Part shown: positions 6,328-30,003 of the stretch, one piece after another
How positions within the stretch are numbered: the first letter of the stretch is position 1
How the letters are laid out: the number at the start of each line of letters is the position of its first letter
From: Oscillospiraceae bacterium
GTDB taxonomy: Bacteria; Bacillota; Clostridia; Oscillospirales; Acutalibacteraceae
NCBI GenBank assembly: GCA_015065645.1
Contig: SVPW01000019.1
Span: forward strand, 1-39,054
Direction of reading: 5' to 3'
DNA: 39,054 nt
The notes under the pieces: model-generated
Seen by the model: the letters and a program-made list of their open reading frames with translations, nothing else
Told to the model about the DNA's origin: nothing
The model's database searches: none
Program-made: the position numbers and the translations under genes

Positions 6328-7056
6328 TTATTTCACGATGACCGGGGTGATGAGGGCCGCAAACACCATAGCGCCCAGCATACTCACGGTCATGGCGTAG
6401 GTCTCCAGCCACTTCCAGCCGCACTTTTTGATCAGCAGACCGCACACGCCCATCAGCGCCGCCGACACCAGCAGCACAAAGACGGGGATCCAGCCCTCCA
6501 GGCCGGAGCGGATGTCTGCAAACACCATGCCGAGGAAGGCGGAGATCATGCCCAGAAACAGCGAGGCCATAAACATGTCGCCCCACTTCTGGTCCTTGTT
6601 CTGCAGCTTGACCACGCCGCCGCGGATCTTTTTCATCAGAATGGGCGGCAGGATGATGCTGGGGAGGATGCCCAGGGTCATGACCCAAGCGATGGCGGCG
6701 TACACCTTGGGATCGGTGATCATTTCGGACAGCTCGGTGATGCCGAAGGAGCCGGCGGCGGCGGTGGCGGCCGGTAGCTCATAGGTGATGGCGCCGATGA
6801 CACTCATCCGGATCCAGGGCAGCGGAATGCCCAGGAATTTCGATAGGGTCACGATGCCCAGCAAAAAGGAAATGGCCGGCGCAATGGTGAACACCGAGGT
6901 GGACACAATGGTCTTGCGCAGCTTGGCGGTGGAAATGCCCAGCTGTTTTCCCCGGCGGTAGGCCCGCACCAGGAAAAACAGCGACTGCGCCAGCACAAAC
7001 AGGATGACAATGGCGCCCACTATGTACAGAAATGGGCTGTTGGTATTGAATTTCAT
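6328..7056 (-). CDS. DUF5058-like membrane protein
   Basis: A 242-residue membrane protein resembling the DUF5058 family by length and general pattern (call from memory of the family, not a search). About six hydrophobic segments are visible, with a conserved-looking central stretch SVIGAITYELPAA (around 85-97) and a cytoplasmic loop rich in lysine near 142-155. The start has AAGGAG upstream, and a near-consensus sigma-A promoter lies at 7089-7117. It is the first gene of a three-gene operon with another small membrane protein and an M20 peptidase. The family has no established function; a role in import or export of a peptide-like substrate is plausible from context. Confidence 0.75.
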   Translation of the reverse strand: MKFNTNSPFLYIVGAIVILFVLAQSLFFLVRAYRRGKQLGISTAKLRKTIVSTSVFTIAPAISFLLGIVTLSKFLGIPLPWIRMSVIGAITYELPAATAAAGSFGITELSEMITDPKVYAAIAWVMTLGILPSIILPPILMKKIRGGVVKLQNKDQKWGDMFMASLFLGMISAFLGMVFADIRSGLEGWIPVFVLLVSAALMGVCGLLIKKCGWKWLETYAMTVSMLGAMVFAALITPVIVK

Positions 7057-7088
7057 ACGGTTTTCTCTCCTTTTGGGGTGATGCCATT

Positions 7089-7117
7089 ATTATACAGCAA
7101 CTCTCCCACGAATGCAA
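7089..7117 (-). promoter_or_regulatory. Sigma-A promoter of the DUF5058/M20 operon
   Basis: On the minus strand TTGCAT (7112-7117) and TATAAT (7089-7094) are separated by exactly 17 bases, about 32 bases ahead of the DUF5058-like start codon. It is one of the last features on the GC-rich side of the composition break. Confidence 0.8.
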
Positions 7118-7153
7118 TATGCGAATGAGCCGCAGATTTTTGTTGCAATTCTA

Positions 7154-7182
7154 TTGCGTATGTGCTATGCTTGTGCTACAAT
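7154..7182 (+). promoter_or_regulatory. Candidate rightward promoter with no adjacent gene
   Basis: TTGCGT (7154-7159) and TACAAT (7177-7182) are 17 bases apart on the plus strand. No start codon with a plausible gene follows for nearly 400 bases, so it may have lost its gene, drive a small RNA, or be spurious. It lies right at the change from GC-rich to AT-rich DNA. Confidence 0.45.
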
Positions 7183-7194
7183 AGGGACAAATAA

Positions 7195-7344
7195 TTATTT
7201 AGCCTTGCCTTTTTTATCAAATGTGTAAGGCAAGGCAGGAATAACCGTCATACTTTCGGCAGTGTTACTGCTTAAAAACAAAGTTTTTAACTGCATTCCC
7301 TTTGGTATGATTTTCAATGTGTCAGTATTACTTTTGTCATACCA
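7195..7344 (-). pseudogene. Possible C-terminal gene remnant at the composition break
   Basis: An open minus-strand frame of 49 codons with no start codon of its own ends at a TAA at 7195-7197. The translation contains TLKIIPKGMQLKTL and MTVIPALPYTF and ends in DKKGKAK, which looks like real protein, but I cannot assign a family. An in-frame TGA precedes it at 7345-7347. Its last codons lie within a 10-bp perfect inverted repeat (7202-7211 with 7227-7236). The whole gap 7118-7568 holds nothing else convincing apart from this, the orphan promoter and a 9-bp inverted repeat at 7465-7491. Confidence 0.3.
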
Positions 7345-7568
7345 TCAAAAAATATAGTTATCTCATAAATTCGGGATAACTCTATTTTCATATATAACTT
7401 GAAAATTGTAATGAAAAATGTTATATTAAATATAAGAAAAAGCTTGTCATTATGCAGATTTTTTAACTTGTGGAAATGATTGCCACAAGTTGAAATCATC
7501 GCCCCTCGCAATAGACAAAGCCAAAGCTTGCTTGAAGTAAGCATATAATACACTTAAGAGGTGATTTT

Positions 7569-8646: not shown

Positions 8647-9036
8647 TTATTTATAATATTCTGCAACCTTTTTCATAAATTCTTCGGTTACACAAAAATG
8701 CTCTGACAAAGCATGAAGTTCTGTATAACCCGCTTTTAACGCAGCAAGATAATCAGCTTTAGGCACTAATTTTTCAATCGCCCAACGGTCTGCACGGCGT
8801 TCATGCTTTCCTCTAATATCAAGAGGAGAATAAATATTATAAAAGCTCATAGTAGCACAATGCCCTATTTCATGTGCCAAGCACACACGCTCCTCTGCAC
8901 CGGTTACGGAATTATCAAGCGCTACAAAGCTTTGCCCATTATCATTAACCGAAACCGAACGGCATTTAGGCATTGAAAAACGGTCAATTATTATACCGCC
9001 GTTTTCAGCAACAGCATAAAGCTCATTTGTTGTCAT
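8647..9036 (-). CDS. ImmA/IrrE-type metallopeptidase
   Basis: A 129-residue zinc peptidase of the ImmA/IrrE family (COG2856). The motif AHEIGHC puts the zinc ligands and catalytic Glu at His55, Glu56 and His59; HERRADRWA at 78-86 supplies the third ligand region typical of the family. In ICEBs1 of Bacillus subtilis, ImmA cleaves the partner XRE repressor ImmR when DNA damage or cell signals are sensed. Here the gene overlaps the end of an XRE repressor gene by 14 bases, the same arrangement as immR-immA, so it very probably cleaves that repressor. No phage integrase is nearby; the controlled genes appear to be the divergent zinc-ribbon/sigma-like/polymerase cassette. Confidence 0.9.
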   Translation of the reverse strand: MTTNELYAVAENGGIIIDRFSMPKCRSVSVNDNGQSFVALDNSVTGAEERVCLAHEIGHCATMSFYNIYSPLDIRGKHERRADRWAIEKLVPKADYLAALKAGYTELHALSEHFCVTEEFMKKVAEYYK

Positions 9037-9355
9037 TCTGACGCTCTTTTATATACCTGGCGTAACGCTTTACCTCATCCCACATCTCATCGGTTACATT
9101 CTCTGCTCCGCCAAAAAGTGCAACCTTTAGGCTGGTTTCATCAGGTATAGGAGCTTCACCTCCATACAAATAATCTACACTTACACCAAAATATTCTGCT
9201 ATTTTGGACAGAGTATCGGCAGAAAGGCTTTTTTTACGGCCTGTTTTATAATCCGAAAGTGATGCCCGTGAAATTTTACAGCTTTGGCAAAGTGCGGTTA
9301 CATTTATGCCGTTTTTTCGGCACAGTTCTTCTATACGTTGATAAATTGGTGTCAT
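9023..9355 (-). CDS. XRE-family repressor (ImmR-like)
   Basis: A 110-residue DNA-binding protein. The N-terminal helix-turn-helix is clear: IEELCRKNGINVTALC then ISRASLSDYKTGRKKS and ADTLSKIAEYFGVSVDYLYGG (residues about 5-65), followed by a C-terminal arm that is the likely cleavage and dimerisation part. The start at 9355 has AAAGGAG with a 9-base gap; a start at 9379 would place the RBS inside the gene. The next gene is an overlapping ImmA-type protease. A consensus promoter (9487-9515, TTGACA-17-TATAAT) drives it, and several 18-bp palindromic sites in that region are the likely operators through which it represses itself and the rightward genes. Confidence 0.92.
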   Translation of the reverse strand: MTPIYQRIEELCRKNGINVTALCQSCKISRASLSDYKTGRKKSLSADTLSKIAEYFGVSVDYLYGGEAPIPDETSLKVALFGGAENVTDEMWDEVKRYARYIKERQNDNK

Positions 9356-9386
9356 TTTTCTCTTCTCCTTTTTGTGCAATTCTACA

Positions 9387-9509
9387 ATTTGGAAATTTCG
9401 TAAATAAAAGACTTGACTTTTACGATTTCTCGAAATATAATAGAGTTGCGATTACGAAATAGCGTAATTTTATTCCTTGTGTACAGATTATATTACACTT
9501 TTTCGTAAT
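9387..9509. promoter_or_regulatory. Operator array: four regularly spaced 18-bp sites
   Basis: Sites share the pattern (A/T)TTACR-N6-CG(T/A)AAT: a weaker one at 9387-9404 (ATTTGG...CGTAAA), then 9419-9436 (TTTACG...CGAAAT), 9451-9468 (ATTACG...CGTAAT, perfect) and 9492-9509 (ATTACA...CGTAAT). Start-to-start spacings are 32, 32 and 41 bases, close to whole helical turns. The second site fills the spacer of the rightward promoter and the fourth fills the spacer of the leftward promoter, so binding should silence both. Confidence 0.75.
9413..9441 (+). promoter_or_regulatory. Rightward promoter of the zinc-ribbon/sigma-like genes
   Basis: TTGACT (9413-9418) and TATAAT (9436-9441) are 17 bases apart. 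The transcript would start near 9448 and run to the gene at 9541. The spacer is an operator-like palindrome. Confidence 0.85.
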
Positions 9510-9515
9510 TGTCAA
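9487..9515 (-). promoter_or_regulatory. Leftward promoter of the repressor/protease operon
   Basis: On the minus strand a perfect TTGACA (9510-9515) and perfect TATAAT (9487-9492) are 17 bases apart. It points toward the XRE gene and faces the rightward promoter head-on, so the two transcripts overlap by about 30 bases. Confidence 0.87.
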
Positions 9516-9540
9516 GTATTATTTTCGGAGGAAAGCGTTA

Positions 9541-9921
9541 ATGTACCAATGTAGGGACTGCGGCAGCCATTTTGAGGTTGCAATCATTAAAAATATTAAA
9601 GGAAAAGGTAAAATCAGGGTATGCCCCGAATGCTTTGGGGTATGGTTTACAACAATACAGCATACACATTGCCGATGTTGCGGAGCAAAGCTTCCCGTAA
9701 CGGCGGTTGAATACTGCAATGAACATTGTGAAAGACGTGGATTGCTCATGTGGCAACGGGAAAGAGACAGAAGAAAGAAGGTTGCAAAATCCTCTTTATA
9801 CACCACTCAAAGTCTATTAGAGCGATACAACAAAAGGTATCACACCCGTTACAGCTACGGACAATTCGTTACACTCATACTTCCCACACTTACAAAGGAG
9901 CAGATTGAAAATGAGCTATGA
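9541..9921 (+). CDS. Double zinc-ribbon protein, switch-controlled
   Basis: A 126-residue protein whose N-terminal half carries two four-cysteine zinc ribbons: Cys4-Cys7 with Cys28-Cys31, and Cys44-Cys47 with Cys59-Cys63. The second has the CCGAKLP...YCNEHCERR look of small DNA- or RNA-binding ribbons. The C-terminal half is basic and helical (RERDRRKKVAK then a YNKRYHTRYSYGQ stretch). GGAGG stands 9 bases before the ATG. It is the first gene of the rightward unit and overlaps the next gene by 11 bases. The role is unknown; nucleic-acid binding is likely. Similar Cys-rich proteins occur in phage and integrative-element regulatory blocks. Confidence 0.8.
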   Translation: MYQCRDCGSHFEVAIIKNIKGKGKIRVCPECFGVWFTTIQHTHCRCCGAKLPVTAVEYCNEHCERRGLLMWQRERDRRKKVAKSSLYTTQSLLERYNKRYHTRYSYGQFVTLILPTLTKEQIENEL

Positions 9922-10249
9922 CGAAAAAAAGTTATATTTGCAAAACTATGCGGTGTATATTGCAATGGCAAGCCGAATAAGGAAAATGATGATTACATAC
10001 CCTTCGGAAGCATCACGCCTTTTGCCAAAGCTTAAAATTGCGTTAAGAATTTGTGAGAATATTGAAAACGAAATTGAGCTTGTAAAGCCACAGCTTTTAA
10101 GCGAGATACTTGCCCAAAAATATCTTGGCGGAAAAAGCTTAGATGAAATTGCGGAAGTGATGAATTACAGCAAAAGACAAATTGAACGGTTGCACTGCTT
10201 GGCAATTAAAAAATTTGAACCGTTTGACTTAGCGCATATAATTAAATAA
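9911..10249 (+). CDS. Sigma-70 region 4-like/ArpU-like regulatory protein
   Basis: A 112-residue protein with a C-terminal helix-turn-helix like sigma-70 region 4: LSEILAQKYLGGKSLDEIAE then MNYSKRQIERLHCLAIKKF (about residues 63-102). The helical N-terminus resembles phage-type late regulators (ArpU/DUF1492 group), which are small sigma-like activators. ATG at 9911 has AAAGGAG 10 bases upstream and overlaps the zinc-ribbon gene by 11 bases, so the two are translated together. It may activate the polymerase gene that follows after 72 bases with its own promoter, or distant genes. The exact family call is moderate. Confidence 0.75.
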   Translation: MSYDEKKLYLQNYAVYIAMASRIRKMMITYPSEASRLLPKLKIALRICENIENEIELVKPQLLSEILAQKYLGGKSLDEIAEVMNYSKRQIERLHCLAIKKFEPFDLAHIIK

Positions 10250-10255
10250 ATAAAC

Positions 10256-10284
10256 TTTACAATGCGCATTTTTGCGTGTATAAT
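10256..10284 (+). promoter_or_regulatory. Promoter of the Y-family polymerase gene
   Basis: TTTACA (10256-10261) and TATAAT (10279-10284) are 17 bases apart. Transcription would start near 10291, at the edge of a LexA-like box. Confidence 0.75.
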
Positions 10285-10291
10285 AACAATG

Positions 10292-10305
10292 CGAACATTT
10301 GTTTT
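10292..10305 (+). promoter_or_regulatory. LexA (SOS) box-like operator
   Basis: CGAACATTTGTTTT matches 12 of 14 positions of the Gram-positive SOS box CGAACRNRYGTTYG. It lies just after the -10 of the polymerase promoter, a place where LexA would block transcription. Confidence 0.65.
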
Positions 10306-10321
10306 AAAGGAGTGGATAAAA

Positions 10322-11500
10322 GTGGCAGACCGTATAATTTTACATTGTGACCTTAATAATTTTTTTGCATCGGTTTCCCTGCTTTCAAACCCCACTCTTT
10401 ATGATTTACCTGTAGCTGTTTGCGGAAAAAGTGAAGAACGCCACGGTATTGTGCTTGCAAAGAATGAAAATGCAAAAAAATACGGTGTGCGCACAGCAGA
10501 AGCCATTTGGGAAGCAAAGGCAAAATGTCCTGAGCTTGTAATTTTATCTCCCGACCGCAAAAAATACAATGAATATTCGCTTGCCACACGCAAAATTTTA
10601 CTGCGGTATACCGATATTATTGAACCGTTTGGTATTGATGAAGCGTGGCTTGATGTTACCGGAAGTACACTTTTATTCGGTGACGGTGAAACCATTGCCC
10701 ACAAAATAAAAGACACCATAAAGGCAGAGCTTGGAATAACGGCATCTGTTGGCGTGAGCTTTAATAAGGTTTTTGCAAAATTGGGTTCAGATATGAAAAA
10801 ACCTGATGCCGTAACTGTTATTTCAAGAGAAAATTTTAAGCAAAAGGTTTGGCCTTTATCTGTAAATGATTTATTATTTGTTGGAAAAAGCACAGCCTCC
10901 CGTCTTGCAGATTGCGGAATACTAACTATTGGAGATTTAACACTTTGTGATGATGATTTTTTAAGGCGAACTTTAGGCAAAAACGGTATAATGCTTAAAA
11001 AATACGCTTTAGGCGAGGATGATTCCCCCGTAACACCGCCAAGTGAGAATGATATTCCAAAAAGTATAGGCCGTTCGGTAACACCTCCTAAGGATATAAC
11101 CACACCGGAAGAGGTTTGGAAAATTTATCTTTCAATTTCTGAGGATATTGCATCAGAGCTTAGGCATCATAACCTTTATGCAGGCGGATTACAGGTACAC
11201 ACTCGCACCACAACACTTGATATTAAGGAATTCAGTCACTCCCTTTCTGTACCGCTTAACACCTCTATGTCTATTGCAAAAAAGGGGTTTGAGCTTTTTA
11301 AGCAAAATTACCGATGGGGACTTCCGCTTCGCTCGGTAGGACTTCGTGCTATAAATTTAAAGGACAGCAACTGTGCGGTTCAGCAGGATTTTTTCAATGA
11401 TGTTTCAAATGATATTAACGATGAAATTATAGAAGAATCGCTTGAAAATTTGCGTGAACGCTTTGGCAAAGGAAGTATCAAAAGAGGACGCAATATTTAA
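10322..11500 (+). CDS. dinB: Y-family DNA polymerase (Pol IV/DinB type)
   Basis: A 392-residue error-prone translesion polymerase. Catalytic acidics are Asp10 in HCDLNNFFASV and Asp106-Glu107 in GIDEAWLDV; the fingers and palm include SVGVSFNKVFAKLGSDMKKP, followed by a helix-hairpin-helix thumb (LLFVGKSTASRLADCGI) and the little-finger domain. QQDFF at 354-358 fits the beta-clamp-binding pentapeptide. The GTG at 10322 is preferred because AAAGGAG lies 9 bases upstream; the frame extends back but without an RBS. Upstream are its own promoter and a LexA-like box, and ahead of it a repressor/protease-controlled gene pair in the same direction, so both SOS and the ImmA-type switch may raise its level. 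The DLNNFF variant is closer to mobile-element and Gram-positive DinB/UvrX-like enzymes than to E. coli DinB. Confidence 0.93.
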   Translation: MADRIILHCDLNNFFASVSLLSNPTLYDLPVAVCGKSEERHGIVLAKNENAKKYGVRTAEAIWEAKAKCPELVILSPDRKKYNEYSLATRKILLRYTDIIEPFGIDEAWLDVTGSTLLFGDGETIAHKIKDTIKAELGITASVGVSFNKVFAKLGSDMKKPDAVTVISRENFKQKVWPLSVNDLLFVGKSTASRLADCGILTIGDLTLCDDDFLRRTLGKNGIMLKKYALGEDDSPVTPPSENDIPKSIGRSVTPPKDITTPEEVWKIYLSISEDIASELRHHNLYAGGLQVHTRTTTLDIKEFSHSLSVPLNTSMSIAKKGFELFKQNYRWGLPLRSVGLRAINLKDSNCAVQQDFFNDVSNDINDEIIEESLENLRERFGKGSIKRGRNI

Positions 11501-17590: not shown

Positions 17591-17830
17591 TTATCTGCTA
17601 AATAAATAATCCAAAGAAACATCTAAAATTTTTGATATTGCATCTATTTCAATATCAGTTACGGCACGCCTGCCGTTTTCTATCCTTGAAATTGAACCAC
17701 GACAGGTATAAACCGCCATAAGCTCCATTTTTTCAGAAAGTTGCTTCTGGCTGTAACCTTTTTTCTCACGTGCTTCTTTAATTCTTTCTCCTATGATATT
17801 TAATTGCTCACCATTAATAATTCTTTTCAT
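17591..17830 (-). CDS. Small XRE-family transcriptional regulator
   Basis: A 79-residue protein that is almost only a Cro/CI-type helix-turn-helix: IGERIKEAREKKGYSQKQLSEKM, then GSISRIENGRRAVTDIEIDAISKILDVSLDYLF. It has an unusual insert MAVYTCRGSI between the first two helices. The divergent neighbour encodes a SLOG-family protein. Between them lie two dyads containing the shared half-site TAGGACA, one next to each start, so this protein probably represses both genes. RBS AGAGATG precedes the ATG. Confidence 0.88.
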   Translation of the reverse strand: MKRIINGEQLNIIGERIKEAREKKGYSQKQLSEKMELMAVYTCRGSISRIENGRRAVTDIEIDAISKILDVSLDYLFSR

Positions 17831-17924: not shown

Positions 17925-18347
17925 ATGAAAACTGCAGTTTTTATAGGTCATAATGAATGTTATAAACTATCAACCGATAATTTAAACAACGCAATAATTG
18001 ATTGTATAAACAATGGTGTTACCAGATTTTTAAGTGGTGGTCAAGGTAGATTTGACCGCATTAGTGCAAATGCTGTTTTCAAATTAAAAAGAAATTTTCC
18101 AAATATAAAAAATATTTTGGTAATTCCTTATTTATCATTCAATATATTCGAAAAGGATATTTTTGATGAAGTTATTTTTCCGGAAGATTTTGAAAAATAT
18201 CATTTTAAAACAGCAATACCTCAGCGTAATAAATATATGGTAAACAATTCAGATATAGCTATTTGTTATATTGAACACAGTTGGGGCAATGCTGTAAAAA
18301 CTTTTAAATATGCCCAAAAAACCAATATAAAAATAATTAAGCTATAA
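17925..18347 (+). CDS. SLOG-family protein (YpsA/DUF1273-like)
   Basis: A 140-residue single-domain Rossmann-like protein. It shows FIGHNECY at residues 6-13, the glycine-rich FLSGGQGRFDRISANAV loop near 35-51, and the end block with RNKYMVNNSDIAICYIE and WGNAVKTFKYA, the same layout as the YpsA/DUF1273 branch of the SLOG superfamily. SLOG domains bind nucleotides or NAD/ADP-ribose derivatives and occur as sensors or effectors in stress and defence systems. The gene is divergent from a small XRE regulator with operator-like dyads between. The ligand and role are unknown; it may sense a nucleotide signal. AGAGGAG is the RBS. Confidence 0.82.
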   Translation: MKTAVFIGHNECYKLSTDNLNNAIIDCINNGVTRFLSGGQGRFDRISANAVFKLKRNFPNIKNILVIPYLSFNIFEKDIFDEVIFPEDFEKYHFKTAIPQRNKYMVNNSDIAICYIEHSWGNAVKTFKYAQKTNIKIIKL

Positions 18348-24902: not shown

Positions 24903-25265
24903 TTATTTATCACTTTTCTTTTCTTCTTCAAACTCAATATCTGCAACGGTAACATTAACACGGGTAACAGCGGCACCTGTCATAGATTGAATGCGTTCCT
25001 TAACATTCTTTTGAACAGCTTCCGCAACCTCATTAACCTTAGCGCCCTGTTTTAAGGTGACAAACACATTCATAACGATTGCACCGTTAACGCTTTCTGC
25101 CTTAACACCCTTAAATGCGCTTTTGTTTTTAACTGTTCCTCTAAGGTCAACCGCACGCTTTGAGATAGAAGCAACACCTGCAACCTCTTTAGTTGCAATA
25201 GTTGCTATTTTCTCAAGAACATCGGTACTGATGGATAACTGAGTAGCCTTTTCATTTGTATGCAT
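24903..25265 (-). CDS. Asp23/Gls24 family envelope stress protein
   Basis: A 120-residue protein of the Asp23/Gls24 (DUF322) family, small membrane-associated or cytoplasmic proteins linked to envelope stress and cell-wall homeostasis in Firmicutes. The core IATIATKEVAGVASI at about 20-34, VFVTLKQGAKVNEVAEAVQKNVKERI in the middle and VTRVNVTVADIEFEEEK near the end fit well. GGAGG is 8 bases upstream of the ATG. It lies just downstream of the spoIIIA operon in the same direction, as in many Clostridia. Confidence 0.93.
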   Translation of the reverse strand: MHTNEKATQLSISTDVLEKIATIATKEVAGVASISKRAVDLRGTVKNKSAFKGVKAESVNGAIVMNVFVTLKQGAKVNEVAEAVQKNVKERIQSMTGAAVTRVNVTVADIEFEEEKKSDK

Positions 25266-25334
25266 AATATATTCCTCCGTAATTAAAAATCCTTTGTTGT
25301 AATTCTATTATACCACATTTTTCAAAAAGCACAA

Positions 25335-25874
25335 CTATTTTACTGCAACAATTTTAATATTTCCCAAAGAAATTCCTGTTTCGGCAATAATTATATCCTG
25401 AATTTGCATACTTTGAGCCGTTGTTATGCCATCTGATGACACCAAAACAGTGATATTATTATCCCCAATAACCGCAACTGCCTTTTCAAAACCTTTTGCT
25501 TTCAGCAAGGTTTCAATATTGTTTTCCTTTTCAATTCTTTCGGCAAGCTCTCTTATAACCGTGAGCACCGATTGCTTATCAACATCGGTGAGCTTATCGG
25601 TATCAAGCATTTCTTCAACCGCATCTTTAGCCTTTTCATAGGCTTTTTCCCTATCCTTTACCGCTTGGGTGAAACGGTCTGAGGTTTTTTCCTCCTCGTT
25701 TTTTGCTGAAGCGGAGGTTTGTATTGCACTGCCGCTTGTATTATCAACATAAGTTGCCTCACCTAAGTATTTTTTAGACGAAAAATTCATATTAAGCCAA
25801 ACAGCAGCACCCAAAGCCACCGCCATTAGCACTAAGGCTATCTGTGCCTTGCCGAATACCTTACCTTTTTTCAT
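25335..25874 (-). CDS. spoIIIAH: Stage III sporulation protein AH
   Basis: A 179-residue mother-cell membrane protein with one N-terminal helix (about 10-27), a charged coiled-coil-like linker (about 60-100) and a C-terminal ring-building domain (about 100-179, NIETLLKAKGFEKAVAVI and TGISLGNIKIVAV). SpoIIIAH pairs with forespore SpoIIQ to form the channel between mother cell and forespore. AGGAGG with an 8-base gap sets the start at 25874. The start overlaps the end of spoIIIAG by 14 bases. It is the last gene of the operon. Confidence 0.93.
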   Translation of the reverse strand: MKKGKVFGKAQIALVLMAVALGAAVWLNMNFSSKKYLGEATYVDNTSGSAIQTSASAKNEEEKTSDRFTQAVKDREKAYEKAKDAVEEMLDTDKLTDVDKQSVLTVIRELAERIEKENNIETLLKAKGFEKAVAVIGDNNITVLVSSDGITTAQSMQIQDIIIAETGISLGNIKIVAVK

Positions 25875-26439
25875 AACTGTTTCCTCCTGCAATATAAACT
25901 CTTTTAGATGTAATACTAAATGCCGCAGTTACAGCACCTTTTATCTTTTGGGCAATGATTTCATCATCTCCCCCTTTACAGATAATGGCAACACCTCTGA
26001 CTTCCGGCATAAGCTCCGTAATCAACAAAGCCTGTTCGCCACCATCGGCAGTACGAACGGTAATATATGAGTGGGTTGATGTCTTACTTTCGGTACCGCC
26101 GCCGTTTGATTTTGTGTTTGATGAATTTGTTTCGGTGGAATCGGCATAGGAATAACGAATACCGCTTTCAAGTGTGACTACAACCGTTGATTGAGTATCA
26201 CCTGTAATATCAGCAACAATTTCCTTTACACTGTTTTCAAGTGAAGAACGATACTGTTCAGCAGAAATTGAAACGGTTTTCTCCACAATTTCAGTTTCAT
26301 CTTCATTTGAAAAACAGGTTGATAAAAATATCAGCATTATACCGATAAGTCCCGCAATCACCAAAGCACGCGGATTTTTCTTTATTCCGCTTATCCCCTT
26401 TTCCCCTTTTTCAAGCATGGACTTCAACCGTATAGGCAC
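25861..26439 (-). CDS. spoIIIAG: Stage III sporulation protein AG
   Basis: A 192-residue protein with one membrane helix (about 27-43) and a periplasmic-type ring domain (EQYRSSLENSVKEIVADI, then LESGIRYSYADS, a Ser/Thr/Gly insert, and VRGVAIICKGGDDE with the final VYIAGGN). SpoIIIAG forms the 30-fold ring of the mother cell-forespore channel. The start taken is GTG at 26439 because GGGAGGT stands 7 bases ahead; an internal ATG at 26418 is possible but has no RBS. It overlaps spoIIIAF by 29 bases. Confidence 0.9.
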   Translation of the reverse strand: MPIRLKSMLEKGEKGISGIKKNPRALVIAGLIGIMLIFLSTCFSNEDETEIVEKTVSISAEQYRSSLENSVKEIVADITGDTQSTVVVTLESGIRYSYADSTETNSSNTKSNGGGTESKTSTHSYITVRTADGGEQALLITELMPEVRGVAIICKGGDDEIIAQKIKGAVTAAFSITSKRVYIAGGNSYEKR

Positions 26440-26836
26440 AATCCTCACCTCCCAAAACCTTTCGTACAGTTTCGGGCAGCTCAGGCGTGATTACTTCAAC
26501 TTTAGTAATCTTTATGCTGCCATCCGGCAATTTATCCGTACAAACTGTTATTTTTGAAAATTCTATGCCTGAATTTGCAAGCGCTACTTCAAATGTAAGC
26601 CTTATAGCGGTATTTTGCATTTCTTCATTTATAACGATATTATTCTCATTTTTTAAAAAATCGGCGCTGATGCCTTTAAGACCGGGCAATGCCGACATTA
26701 TACATACAACAAAAATCAGGCTGAAAACATATTTAACCGATTGCTGTAATGCACCCTTTGGGCACAGCACATAAAGCACACCTGTCATAATACAAACCGT
26801 ACAAAATGCGGCAGTGAACTGAGAAAGAGAACTCAT
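26411..26836 (-). CDS. spoIIIAF: Stage III sporulation protein AF
   Basis: A 141-residue protein with two N-terminal membrane helices (about 5-25 and 34-50) and a soluble ring-building domain (about 60-141) ending in VLGGEDCAYTVEV. SpoIIIAF is a part of the SpoIIIA channel complex. The start overlaps the spoIIIAE stop by 4 bases (ATGA), so the two are translationally coupled. Confidence 0.9.
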   Translation of the reverse strand: MSSLSQFTAAFCTVCIMTGVLYVLCPKGALQQSVKYVFSLIFVVCIMSALPGLKGISADFLKNENNIVINEEMQNTAIRLTFEVALANSGIEFSKITVCTDKLPDGSIKITKVEVITPELPETVRKVLGGEDCAYTVEVHA

Positions 26837-27939
26837 ACGGTCTTCACCGCAGTTACCACTACCGTAAGAGATATTATAAACATTGCCCCCGTAAGCAATA
26901 CAACCCCCACAAGCAACGAAAGCATCATATCCACCGCCTTTAAAAGCTTAGTAACAGATGTTGCGGAAAATTGTGATGAAACGGTTGAACAAAAAAACAA
27001 TACCAACCGCCAAATAAGCATTTCCACCACAATAGGAAGTAAAATTGCCGCAAGTGCCACAATGCCGTAAATTCCAACCGATGAACGAAGCAGTGAAAGC
27101 GATGCTGTTACGGTGGATGCCGCTTCAGAAAGCGCCGCACCGCCTATTGGAATTGCTGTTCCGATTATAAATTTACCTGCCTTTAAAGCAAGGGTATCTG
27201 CCGCAGAATTAACCGCTGTTTGTATACCTAAAATTCCTATAAAAACCGTAGTTATAAAGGAAAGAATCCAAAAGGCTATTCGGCGAATACCCTCAGCAAT
27301 ATCATTATTATCACTAAGCGGTGATACACTTGTACAAAGACTCATTGCAAGATATGAACCCATAAGCGGAAGTATTGCAAATGCCGCAACCGCACTTACA
27401 ATCTCTGCCGCACCAAGTAACAAAGCACTCATTGACACAGCAGACACCGTACCGCCCGATGCCGCCACTATTCCCGCAAACACAGGTACAAAGCAGAGCA
27501 TAAAGCCACTGCTCCCCCTCACCGCTTCAACCGCCGCCGAAACGGTTTTCCAAACAGGAGATGCTACACAAAGCGCAATGCAAAGCACAGAAACCATCTG
27601 CGTATTCTTTGAGGGAAACACAGAAAAGGCAGTAAAAGCCGATGTTAGCACTATAAGGCCCAAAGCTAAGCCGCCTATTTTAAGCGGAGTTTTTATTCCC
27701 CCGCTTAAAAGCTCAAAAATATGTGAAAAAACATTTTGTGCCGTAAAATTTTGCACCCAATCACTATTTGAAGGGTCAATGCCGTTTTCATCAATATAAT
27801 CCCTTGCATCATCGGTAAGATAATAAGAAAGCTCCCCTGCACCGCTTGCTTCAAATTCTTCATTGTATATTTCATCTGCGGCATAAACCGGCATTGCAGG
27901 CAAAATAATCAAAATCAAAATAACAATTATCTTTTTCAT
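26833..27939 (-). CDS. spoIIIAE: Stage III sporulation protein AE
   Basis: A 368-residue membrane protein with a cleavable-looking signal peptide (residues 1-20, ending PVYA) and seven or eight later membrane helices, including the conserved GTAIPIGGAALSEAASTVTAS stretch and QTAVNSAADTLALKAGKF. SpoIIIAE is the polytopic subunit of the mother cell-forespore feeding-tube complex. The start at 27939 overlaps the spoIIIAD stop by ATGA; a longer frame upstream has no RBS. Confidence 0.93.
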   Translation of the reverse strand: MKKIIVILILIILPAMPVYAADEIYNEEFEASGAGELSYYLTDDARDYIDENGIDPSNSDWVQNFTAQNVFSHIFELLSGGIKTPLKIGGLALGLIVLTSAFTAFSVFPSKNTQMVSVLCIALCVASPVWKTVSAAVEAVRGSSGFMLCFVPVFAGIVAASGGTVSAVSMSALLLGAAEIVSAVAAFAILPLMGSYLAMSLCTSVSPLSDNNDIAEGIRRIAFWILSFITTVFIGILGIQTAVNSAADTLALKAGKFIIGTAIPIGGAALSEAASTVTASLSLLRSSVGIYGIVALAAILLPIVVEMLIWRLVLFFCSTVSSQFSATSVTKLLKAVDMMLSLLVGVVLLTGAMFIISLTVVVTAVKTV

Positions 27940-28322
27940 ACATCCGCAAAGGTGAGCGCAAGCTCTAAAACACCGCTTAATAAAGGCAGTGACAGTGCAC
28001 ACAAAGCAAGTCTTCCCGCAAGCTCGGCTTTTGCCGCAAGTGCGCTTTGCCCAAAATCTCTGCAGGAATTTGCAGCAAATGCCGTAATATAAGCAATCCC
28101 CAACGCCTTTAATGCAATTTTATAATAATTTACGGCATTTCCCTTTTGTGCCAAAGCGTAAATTTCATTTAAAATTGGCACAAGCTGACTAAAAAGAAAG
28201 GTAATTATAATAACGGCTGCCGCCAATGCTGCAAGAAAGCCGTATTCTCCCTTATACTGTTTTAAAAACACAACCAACAATGCCGCTATAATACATAAAG
28301 CCGAAATTTTCACTATATCCAT
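27936..28322 (-). CDS. spoIIIAD: Stage III sporulation protein AD
   Basis: A 128-residue protein with four hydrophobic segments, the size and pattern of SpoIIIAD, including the conserved KALGIAYITAFAANSCRDFGQSALAAKAELAGR block. It is a membrane part of the SpoIIIA complex. The ATG is 2 bases beyond the spoIIIAC stop, with coupling rather than a clear RBS. Confidence 0.92.
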   Translation of the reverse strand: MDIVKISALCIIAALLVVFLKQYKGEYGFLAALAAAVIIITFLFSQLVPILNEIYALAQKGNAVNYYKIALKALGIAYITAFAANSCRDFGQSALAAKAELAGRLALCALSLPLLSGVLELALTFADV

Positions 28323-28324
28323 AG

Positions 28325-28519
28325 CTATAACCCGAAAAGTCCCTTTACGGTATCAAAAAGGTCAGCTATTGCCGAAACCACCATAAGAAGTACAACCACA
28401 AGTCCCGCAAGGGTGGTGAGCATTGCCTGCTCCTCACGACCCGAACGCACAAGTAATTGATTAAGCACCGTAACTATTATACCAATGGCGGCTATTTTAA
28501 AAATAAAATCCACATTCAT
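28325..28519 (-). CDS. spoIIIAC: Stage III sporulation protein AC
   Basis: A 64-residue protein with two membrane helices, the normal size for SpoIIIAC, with IGIIVTVLNQLLVRSGREEQ and a second helix LAGLVVVLLMVVSAI. It is part of the SpoIIIA complex and distantly like the SpoIIIAD repeat. GGAAG is the RBS. Confidence 0.92.
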   Translation of the reverse strand: MNVDFIFKIAAIGIIVTVLNQLLVRSGREEQAMLTTLAGLVVVLLMVVSAIADLFDTVKGLFGL

Positions 28520-28529
28520 ATTTTTCTTC

Positions 28530-28979
28530 CTAAATAAGTATTATACACATGCCTGCCCCACAACAAATACCAAGTGTTTTATAGAGCTTTGAAAGCTGAC
28601 TGTTTTCCTTTGCGGCATCGGCTAAATTGCGTTCAAAAAGCTTTAGATAAAGCTCTATTCGACCAAGCTCGGCATTTGTATCACCACTTCCGAAAAGTGA
28701 TAAAAACTCCTCTAAAAGCTGTTTATCGGCTTCATTTATACCACAGGATAAAACCTGCGGCACATCTTCACTAAAGCCTATTATCCCCTTTTGCATAAAA
28801 GCCGCTTTCAAAAGAAGCAACCTTTCACTGCCATCATACAAAAGCCTTGCTGAAAGCTCCTGCATACATCCCCTTATTTCCTCAAGTTTTTGCTCACGCA
28901 CTTTAAGATTAACGGATTTATGCACACCAAAGGAAGCACACACCAAAAAAATCAGCACAAGCCCTATAAGCTTAAACAT
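28530..28979 (-). CDS. spoIIIAB: Stage III sporulation protein AB
   Basis: A 149-residue protein with N-terminal and C-terminal membrane helices flanking a helical domain, as in SpoIIIAB, which is distantly related to type II secretion protein GspF. The ATG at 28979 lies inside the end of spoIIIAA (8-base overlap), fitting translational coupling. Two earlier starts in the frame would lie deeper in spoIIIAA. Confidence 0.9.
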   Translation of the reverse strand: MFKLIGLVLIFLVCASFGVHKSVNLKVREQKLEEIRGCMQELSARLLYDGSERLLLLKAAFMQKGIIGFSEDVPQVLSCGINEADKQLLEEFLSLFGSGDTNAELGRIELYLKLFERNLADAAKENSQLSKLYKTLGICCGAGMCIILI

Positions 28980-29907
28980 CCAAATCATATAAAAAATCCT
29001 CAGTAGATAATATTTGGGGCGCACTGCCAAGTGTTCCCGAAAGAAGTGCTATTTTTGAAATTGCACCCGAACGCAAAAGCCCATTTGTAACACTTCTTCT
29101 TGTAATATCCTCTATCTTTCCTATATGTGCTGTTGTAACAACGGCAACACCTGCATTAAGGCTATCTGAAACACTTTTTAGCTCTGCCGCTGTTCCTATT
29201 TCATCAAACACAACCACATCCGGGAACATTGTTCTTATAGCCATTTGTGTGCCAAGTGCCTTATCGGGAATAAGAAGCACATCGGTATTTCTCCCAAGGT
29301 CATTATTACAGCTGCCCGCATAGCTTCCCGAAAGCTCCCCACGGCTATCAATTACAACAACACGGTAATATCTGCCACATAGTCCGTTTGATAACTGACG
29401 GACAAAATCCCTTAAAACGGTTGTTTTTCCGCTACCGGGAGGCCCCGCAATAAGCATTCCGCCACCATCAAACTCCTTTATAAGCTCAGAAGCACAGCCA
29501 AAAACCTCCCGTGCTATACGAATATTCACCGATGAAATATCACGCATAAGCCCACCTTGAGTAACCGTTCCGCAAATTCCCGCCCTGTGACCTCCACTCA
29601 TCATAATAAAACCGTTTTGTATTTCGGCTGTGTGAGCATATACCGATTCACGGCATAAAAGGCGAAAGCTTTCTTCTAAATCTAAGGTATTTGCGGTGAG
29701 CAGATCACGGGTTATAAAATCCGCCACAGTACCGTTTTCCAAAACAAACAACGGTCTTGATGAAACTGTAAGTGACACGGGAAGTCCTGCACGAAGGCGT
29801 ATTTCTTCGGTTTTGCGTTTAATTGTATCGGGCAGTTTTTTTAATACCTCCCTTATTCTCACTCCAACACCATAAAGCGCACTGTCAAACTGTTGAGTTC
29901 CTGTCAT
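28972..29907 (-). CDS. spoIIIAA: Stage III sporulation protein AA, ATPase
   Basis: A 311-residue ATPase related to type II/IV secretion ATPases; it powers or gates the SpoIIIA channel. Walker A is GPPGSGKT at 155-162 and Walker B is VVVFDE at 231-236; TTAHIGKIEDI is the later sensor-like block. AAGGAG 7 bases upstream puts the start at 29907, six codons after another ATG. It is the first gene of the operon. I see no convincing sigma-E promoter in the 80 bases upstream, though that is where one is expected. Confidence 0.95.
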   Translation of the reverse strand: MTGTQQFDSALYGVGVRIREVLKKLPDTIKRKTEEIRLRAGLPVSLTVSSRPLFVLENGTVADFITRDLLTANTLDLEESFRLLCRESVYAHTAEIQNGFIMMSGGHRAGICGTVTQGGLMRDISSVNIRIAREVFGCASELIKEFDGGGMLIAGPPGSGKTTVLRDFVRQLSNGLCGRYYRVVVIDSRGELSGSYAGSCNNDLGRNTDVLLIPDKALGTQMAIRTMFPDVVVFDEIGTAAELKSVSDSLNAGVAVVTTAHIGKIEDITRRSVTNGLLRSGAISKIALLSGTLGSAPQILSTEDFLYDLDV

Positions 29908-30003
29908 ATCAATACTCCTTGCCATTATACTGATTTTACGAACAGCCCGTCCGTTACTGTTTTAAGATATGAAGGACAAACAATTTATAGAACCGTTTAT
30001 AAA

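Follow-up and report, generated by a model that had tools for sequence, protein, structure and literature searches.

A probably domesticated repressor-protease switch opposite a zinc-ribbon and sigma-like gene pair, beside a LexA-box polymerase gene, in Acutalibacteraceae

We describe a five-gene cassette on contig SVPW01000019.1 of the Oscillospiraceae bacterium assembly GCA_015065645.1 (1.86 Mb, 85.7% complete; GTDB family Acutalibacteraceae). The contig was analyzed over its whole length of 39,054 nucleotides and is called the window here; in our labels, L stands for locus, G for genome, and g for genus. In one direction run the genes for an XRE repressor (XRE) and, overlapping it by 14 bases, an M78 metalloprotease of the ImmA/IrrE/CapP type (IMMA). 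Opposite them lie genes for a zinc-ribbon protein (ZNR), a small sigma-like protein (SIG), and a Y-family DNA polymerase (POL). Comparison with the sequences of relatives indicates that the cassette is probably a domesticated repressor-protease switch that controls ZNR-SIG and is coupled to POL secondarily and in part, and that it is apparently a chromosomal locus, largely vertically inherited. The gene anatomy and layout are well supported. All five genes lie where a first-pass annotation, made from the letters alone, had placed them, and our open reading frame (ORF) listing and Pfam and PHROG scans confirm its account of overlapping repressor and ImmA-type protease genes opposite zinc-ribbon, sigma-like, and Y-family genes. 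How the switch works we infer from the protein families.

The five-gene order, sought across genomes, is conserved among relatives whose ZNR proteins are 28 to 42% identical to that of the window, so the common gene order is not recent. A search with the single ZNR sequence matched 12 of 200 family genomes; with a ZNR profile, matches came from 19 of 398 family genomes, spread over 7 of 135 genera (g91 and g92 by partial matches only). Within the genus, the profile matched 60 of 70 genomes, 54 of them strongly (E <1e-24) and six by a short zinc-ribbon match only; at class level it matched 4 of 391, two from the same genus and two weakly. A named collection yielded 41 ZNR loci, all titled Clostridia, Clostridiaceae, Oscillospiraceae, or Ruminococcaceae, many of them from the guts of ruminants and other herbivores. 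From 71 loci (L103-L132, L135-L175) we retained 53 distinct ZNR-SIG loci, after dropping copies that share the same final 200 bases of ZNR, as well as loci without a ZNR or SIG match (such as L151 and L175). Thirty of these carry both XRE and IMMA, 11 carry XRE only, and 12 carry neither. The complete five-gene order is present in 17 of the 53, window included, and a further complete example, L047, comes from a set outside this count (L044-L083).

What argues most strongly for XRE as the owner of the sites between XRE and ZNR is that the palindromes and opposed promoters found there track the repressor gene across these loci. Two or more palindromes (pattern TTACGN6CGTAA, up to two mismatches) occur in 29 of the 30 loci with XRE and IMMA, in all 11 with XRE only, and in none of the 12 with neither, which amounts to 40 of 41 loci with XRE versus 0 of 12 without it. 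A forward and a reverse promoter, each with at most two mismatches, are present in all 41 XRE loci and in one of the 12 others (L160). In the window, the multi-site operator region that had been proposed at 9387-9509 does hold four palindromes, within 9388-9508. At two mismatches the window shows no overall excess of the pattern (16 matches, 15.9 in shuffles), and 4 of the 16 are concentrated in those 121 bases. The two opposed transcripts would begin in each other's 5' leaders, with an estimated overlap of about 30 bases. Genome-wide, at one mismatch, the palindrome is rarer than its control (53 versus 130), which gives no hint of a dispersed regulon. A stricter, exact motif matched in 4 of 9 relatives, each time at the cassette, and the one additional exact site (G094) lies inside a reading frame resembling gyrA; on these grounds a wider XRE regulon was rejected. 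In G126 (L055/L174 intergenic), the palindrome copies are jointly shifted to TTACTGAAA-n-CAGTAA, which looks like a coordinated change of operator and repressor.

The loci that lack part of the switch also form a pattern. In a midpoint-rooted tree of ZNR plus SIG, one branch (96/82) separates the protease-bearing loci from the rest, and in the rest XRE presence changes up to four times, with well-supported branches forcing at least two changes. The simplest reading would be that the protease was lost once and the repressor several times. One branch seems to record a stepwise loss, protease first and then repressor, with ZNR-SIG kept. The ZNR genes of L171 (5965-6246) and L151 (5965-6240) lack the first zinc ribbon and keep the second CxxC segment and the SYGQ motif; this first ribbon may be dispensable.

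It had been claimed that the output of the switch is the polymerase. In the window, that claim is not supported: POL has a SigA-type promoter of its own (10256-10284), followed by a LexA (SOS) box, both of which had been missed. Of 33 linked POL genes, 30 have a LexA box with at most one mismatch in the 130 bp ahead of them; the background is 7 of 476 overlapping local 130-bp segments, POL's own included. Across the genus, 22 of 25 readable POL loci (28 given) have such a box, made up of 16 of 16 with a strong ZNR match and 6 of 9 without one. A CTTTACA -35 box is seen by eye in 18 of 25 readable genus POL promoters (the window's and L191-L218), with or without the cassette. The idea that SIG is needed at this promoter was unsupported, since POL in genomes without strong ZNR has CTTTACA as well (L193, L199, L207). 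Since POL has its own promoter in the window and in most relatives, read-through would be the only route from the switch to POL there. The genus g94 is arranged differently (L161, L173): POL directly follows SIG without its own LexA box or promoter, and an exact LexA box stands right after the -10 box of the shared ZNR promoter, with an XRE palindrome in that promoter's spacer. A LexA domain is present in 11 of 12 same-genus relatives. A second good LexA box in the window's genome precedes a gene for a small, probably membrane-bound protein without a Pfam match at 0.01.

POL is next to the cassette in 33 of 51 readable loci (17 with XRE and IMMA, 11 with XRE only, and 5 with neither) and not adjacent in the other 18, where at least 900 bp were read downstream; L123 and L124, both with XRE and IMMA, were not readable. 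Of the 54 genus genomes with a strong ZNR match, 38 have POL next to the cassette in the same orientation, 12 have it elsewhere, and in 4 it was not found; some contigs in this count end at the locus, and G254 and G255, two of the 12, have ZNR at a contig end. Conversely, 14 of the 70 genus genomes have POL and no strong ZNR match, and six of these have the weak, short zinc-ribbon match. Adjacency is found in three genera (g1, g75, g94); the cassettes of g50 and g126 have no POL beside them, and these genomes encode one elsewhere. We considered XRE control of such unlinked POL genes and rejected it, as no palindrome precedes POL at L050 or L054 (L052 is cut too short to tell). Genes reading as serC and thrS/pth flank three of the POL-less loci (L157, L163, L170), L162 and L174 share one side each, and the outer flanks of the cassette differ among genera. 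By this linkage pattern, wherever the switch occurs it faces ZNR-SIG, and POL is a frequent neighbor but not an obligatory one. In L138, the place after SIG that POL would occupy is taken by a transposon-type TnpV gene (6926-7500), and an insertion may have separated or removed POL.

How might such a switch work? An XRE dimer would bind the palindromes and shut both promoters, thereby repressing its own gene and ZNR-SIG. DNA damage would then activate the protease, by way of single-stranded DNA (ssDNA) or another damage signal; ssDNA is reported to activate PprI and CapP (PMC10904395, PMC13373217). The activated protease would cleave XRE and release ZNR-SIG, which at a guess form a pair of small DNA-binding transcription factors. 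In parallel, LexA cleavage would release POL. ZNR-SIG transcripts reading on into POL would supply a second, XRE-gated dose of polymerase; between SIG and POL we saw nothing resembling a terminator that would stop them. In g94, with the two controls merged on one promoter, POL would need both repressors removed.

The locus is apparently a chromosomal resident. Tyrosine recombinases occur somewhere in all 26 genomes searched, and in two of these, G198 and G227, one shares the contig of the cassette at a distance of no more than 20 kb (several contigs are short). The G227 recombinase is a 308-amino-acid, Xer-sized protein, near a cassette from which XRE and IMMA are absent. In G198, the gene that immediately follows POL, in the same orientation, encodes a 414-amino-acid phage-type integrase (L161 8041-9285), possibly marking the end of a mobile element. 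The window's genome has three tyrosine-recombinase matches, none on the window's contig, in a search that covered tyrosine but not serine recombinases. When 131 flank proteins from 24 loci were scanned with PHROG and Pfam, no integrase, capsid, or terminase appeared among the matches listed (25 families each, with 51 and 137 further), and this test is weak because the G198 integrase, one of the 131, is not among the matches listed either. The first-pass annotation had noted no integrase, excisionase, or structural phage gene, which fits the ORF lists as read by eye, not every ORF having been scanned. Nor did we find a complete prophage or integrative and conjugative element (ICE) around the cassette, an outcome it had set against its own proposal, in a mobile-gene search that is incomplete. 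ZNR and SIG were also considered as phage genes. This was rejected: no ZNR relative was confirmed among 50 pattern matches in viral contigs, and neither protein had a tblastn match in the phage collection. Two weak, partial ZNR-like matches (L060, L061) lie, by eye, in phage- or ICE-looking surroundings.

Judging from gene order and promoters, a direct wiring of switch to polymerase exists in gut phages. A tblastn search with POL found 65 phage records. In all five annotated loci examined from gut phages of “Candidatus (Ca.) Heliusvirales,” a Y-family polymerase gene lies opposite a repressor gene, with a small ORF between them in three (in two, a 41-amino-acid ORF before the polymerase); L220 and L229 are close relatives of one another. 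An M78 protease gene accompanies the repressor in three of the five, and one locus encodes a self-cleaving S24-type repressor. A perfect promoter points toward the polymerase in 5 of 6 readable phage loci (seven given; L233 was not readable), and none of the six has a LexA box. The “Ca. Heliusvirales” lysogeny region is thus like the window in that an M78-XRE pair faces, via strong opposed promoters, a Y-family polymerase 44 to 50% identical to POL, and unlike it in having neither LexA box nor ZNR-SIG. The XRE and protease of the window are not specifically similar to those of these phages, so descent from them is not shown.

Several other explanations have to be weighed against the reading given above, and two of them concern how tightly POL is tied to the switch. 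POL and the cassette might be independently regulated, their adjacency an inherited accident, which we consider unlikely. The 12 strong-ZNR genomes with POL elsewhere, the 14 genus genomes with POL and without strong ZNR, and a POL promoter that does not differ in kind between genomes that have the cassette and genomes that lack it are what one would expect of mere neighbors. An accident accounts less well for co-oriented adjacency in 38 of 54 genus genomes, and in three genera, despite changing outer flanks; moreover, in g94, where POL has lost its own box, the shared promoter carries one, as expected if both controls matter. At the other extreme, ZNR, SIG, and POL could form one operon on the XRE-controlled promoter, with the polymerase as the main output and a lysogeny switch domesticated for mutagenesis. 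We hold this to be unlikely, even though the gut phages place their polymerase directly opposite the repressor (5/5, with a LexA box in 0/6), the g94 POL follows SIG without its own promoter, and POL is adjacent in 11 of 11 XRE-only loci. The window POL has its own promoter and LexA box, POL is missing beside 11 of the 28 readable loci with XRE and IMMA, and the unlinked POL genes that could be read (L050, L054) lack the XRE palindrome. The first-pass proposal of a domesticated lysogeny switch that turns on mutagenesis therefore survives in part: the switch pair, its divergent layout, its multi-site operator region, its conservation across genomes, and its apparent chromosomal residence stand, but POL as the output in the window is not supported. 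The direct wiring that it proposed exists in the gut phages and probably holds in g94.

The remaining alternatives would sever the locus from the polymerase, or from any function. It could be a damage-activated controller like CapH-CapP, with ZNR-SIG as a stress or defense effector unrelated to POL. CapH and CapP are described as controlling adjacent immune operons in response to ssDNA (PMC13373217), a repressor and protease over a neighboring operon as proposed here, and in PADLOC the window XRE has capH as its best match (5e-10) over nearly its full length and the protease matches capP (3.8e-5). We judge this quite improbable: three RmrA models score slightly above capP for the protease (1.4e-5 to 3.7e-5) and phrog_87 far better (1.6e-20), no PADLOC model is matched at E 0.01 by ZNR, SIG, or POL, and the window differs from CapH-CapP loci in having no recognized CBASS, BREX, or other immune operon and an attached LexA-box gene. 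Finally, the cassette could be the decaying immunity region of a prophage or ICE with no host function left, a suggestion prompted by the apparent stepwise loss of protease and then repressor and by the phage-type integrase beside POL in G198. Such decay is very improbable given the conservation over deep divergence of operators, promoters, and catalytic motifs. HExxH and ExxAxx[WF]A are present in all 30 loci with IMMA, window included, and a catalytic-motif pattern matches 32 of 33 linked POL genes, the 33rd (L156) being intact when read. The recurrent serC-like and thrS/pth-like neighbors of POL-less loci, and a tyrosine recombinase nearby in only 2 of 26 genomes, speak against decay as well.

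We therefore keep to a domesticated switch that controls ZNR-SIG and reaches POL in part, and several observations weigh against it. The role given to ZNR-SIG rests on a weak sigma-region-4 match. Some XRE loci have no palindrome in a promoter spacer (for example, the reverse promoters of L154, L161, L168, and L173), and changes in the recognition helix did not clearly track changes in the operator. On the LexA side, no box is found at the linked POL of L158, where it is absent both before POL and from the shared promoter, nor at the genus POL loci L191, L194, and L215, which are without strong ZNR. In the window's own assembly, at its 85.7% completeness, no LexA domain was found, and genome-wide counts of LexA-box-like sites show no enrichment (forward 4 and reverse 3, versus 7 and 5 in the control). 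Because the tree is midpoint-rooted, loss rather than gain is only inferred, and the same series of losses could reflect a locus drifting out of use.

Among the closest parallels are switches of mobile elements. In ICEBs1, the ImmR-ImmA gene pair is divergent from the genes it controls, and the PBSX module offers another resemblance in its XkdA-Xre and its sigma-like Xpf. The window locus likewise has overlapping XRE and M78 genes, the latter with HExxH, divergent from the presumably controlled genes, and repressor-type repeats in the divergent promoter region. It differs from ImmR-ImmA of ICEBs1 and related ICEs and prophages in having no recognized excision, integration, or transfer genes, and in its output, which is ZNR-SIG followed by a LexA-box polymerase. 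ImmA is reported to cleave ImmR, and XRE/COG2856 pairs to be common on conjugative transposons and phages (PMC8072749); ImmA-type regulation is also described in pneumococcal prophages (PMC12637031). The Listeria monocin switch is described as having opposed promoters, with a cI-like repressor and the DUF955 protease MpaR one way and two early genes, lmaD-lmaC, the other, in a cryptic element co-opted by its host together with MpaR (PMC6872733). The layout is the same as in the window, but the monocin still controls phage-derived lysis genes, and in the window no phage gene is recognized and the gene pair is another one. In Deinococcus, IrrE is reported to cleave DdrO, and some species to keep translesion genes under LexA (PMC8072749). 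That protease-repressor pair shares with the window a chromosomal DNA-damage setting, but the DdrO regulon is dispersed, and the window genome has one operator cluster and no regulon that we could see. POL itself resembles the SOS Y-family polymerases of Firmicutes (YqjH, YqjW, UvrX) in its LexA-type promoter box and Pol IV-like sequence. LexA control and YolD partners of YqjW and UvrX are reported there (PMC6511836), whereas the neighbors of POL, namely ZNR, SIG, and a phosphate transporter, match no YolD model. In searches of the open-access literature, no paper was found that, from its title and the start of its abstract, describes the arrangement seen here.

The coordinates are collected in the table. 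Three listed ORF starts are probably too long (XRE, TTG 9379 in ORF 9023-9379; SIG, TTG 9905 in ORF 9905-10249; POL, ATG 10262), and we prefer ATG 9355, ATG 9911, and 10322 because, on our own reading, they fit the ribosome-binding sites and the relatives. IMMA falls in a phage metalloprotease family, phrog_87, and has no homolog in PDB by phmmer. The two CxxC pairs of ZNR are conserved in the alignment of relatives; ZNR has no Pfam family above the cut-off, and the PDB matches of its profile look like zinc-finger resemblances only. SIG belongs to phrog_36, a family of transcriptional regulators. Its sigma-70 region 4 match is below the curated Pfam cut-off (2.5e-4, 21.0 bits versus 25.7), which leaves it sigma-“like,” and a SIG profile matched the solved sigma factor 8x6g weakly (0.0016, profile positions 48-103 of 105). 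The catalytic D and DE residues of POL are intact, and POL is the sole IMS-domain match in the 85.7% complete assembly.

Features of the cassette and of a related gene pair (window coordinates unless a locus is named)
Feature	Position	Strand	Match or remark
IMMA, M78 (ImmA/IrrE/CapP-type) metalloprotease	8647..9036	-	Peptidase_M78 PF06114 E 1.1e-7; phrog_87 1.6e-20; HEIGH active site
XRE repressor	9023..9355	-	HTH_26 3.3e-11, HTH_3; phrog_8 3e-21; PADLOC capH 5e-10, residues 8-112 of 118
Operator-like palindrome 1	9388..9403		2 mismatches; weaker copy at left
ZNR-SIG promoter	9413..9441	+	TTGACT-17-TATAAT; 11/12
Operator-like palindrome 2	9420..9435		1 mismatch; within ZNR promoter spacer
Operator-like palindrome 3	9452..9467		TTACGAAATAGCGTAA; exact; between the two -10 boxes
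XRE-IMMA promoter	9487..9515	-	TTGACA-17-TATAAT; 12/12; faces ZNR-SIG promoter
Operator-like palindrome 4	9493..9508		1 mismatch; within XRE-IMMA promoter spacer
ZNR, zinc ribbon, second CxxC segment, and C-terminal SYGQ motif	9541..9921	+	alignment
SIG, small sigma-region-4-like / phage-regulator-like helix-turn-helix protein	9911..10249	+	phrog_36 8e-10; overlaps ZNR
POL promoter	10256..10284	+	TTTACA-17-TATAAT; 11/12
LexA (SOS) box	10293..10304	+	GAACATTTGTTT; directly after -10; 1 mismatch to GAACN4GTTC
POL, Y-family DNA polymerase (Pol IV-like)	10322..11500	+	IMS PF00817 3.3e-43; Pol IV 7yll 1.2e-44; likely GTG start
Small XRE gene and partner protein gene, first place	17591-17830 and 17925-18347	- and +	window
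Small XRE gene and partner protein gene, second place	L227 1117-1488 and 548-1003	+ and -	

The surroundings of the cassette deserve some caution. GC content drops from about 60% to 40% at 7.0 kb of the window and to 25-37% beyond 7.3 kb, and six stretches sampled on other contigs of the same genome have 34-40%. The first 7 kb could have been mis-joined from another genome or recently transferred, and because of this break at 7.0-7.3 kb the left flank of the cassette is unreliable. Elsewhere in the genome, a small XRE gene stands beside a gene for a 140- to 151-amino-acid protein, in the same divergent layout, in two places. The two partner proteins are 39% identical over 111 residues and the two XRE proteins 38% over 65, and at the second place (L227) the next gene carries a LexA box. 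A gene run at 24903-29925 on the minus strand reads, by eye, like the spoIIIA sporulation operon, which suggests a spore-forming lineage.

It is tempting to go further and see in ZNR-SIG a new conserved DNA-damage module that works with a Y-family polymerase, either as a transcription factor pair or as accessory subunits replacing YolD/UmuD. The locus would then integrate a LexA/RecA sensor with a repressor-protease sensor, and the single promoter of g94 would be an AND gate for mutagenesis, opening only once both repressors are destroyed. As a whole, this extension strikes us as distinctly unlikely. Repressor-protease switches are already known from mobile elements, Deinococcus repair, and immune operons. 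What is new here is a switch that is apparently fixed in its host, beside an SOS polymerase and over a new gene pair. It comes with a natural loss series, of the protease and then of the repressor with its operators, and with a g94 promoter that carries both LexA and XRE-type sites. The locus thus makes two matters testable: how a host takes over a lysogeny-type switch, and how two damage sensors may be combined at one promoter.

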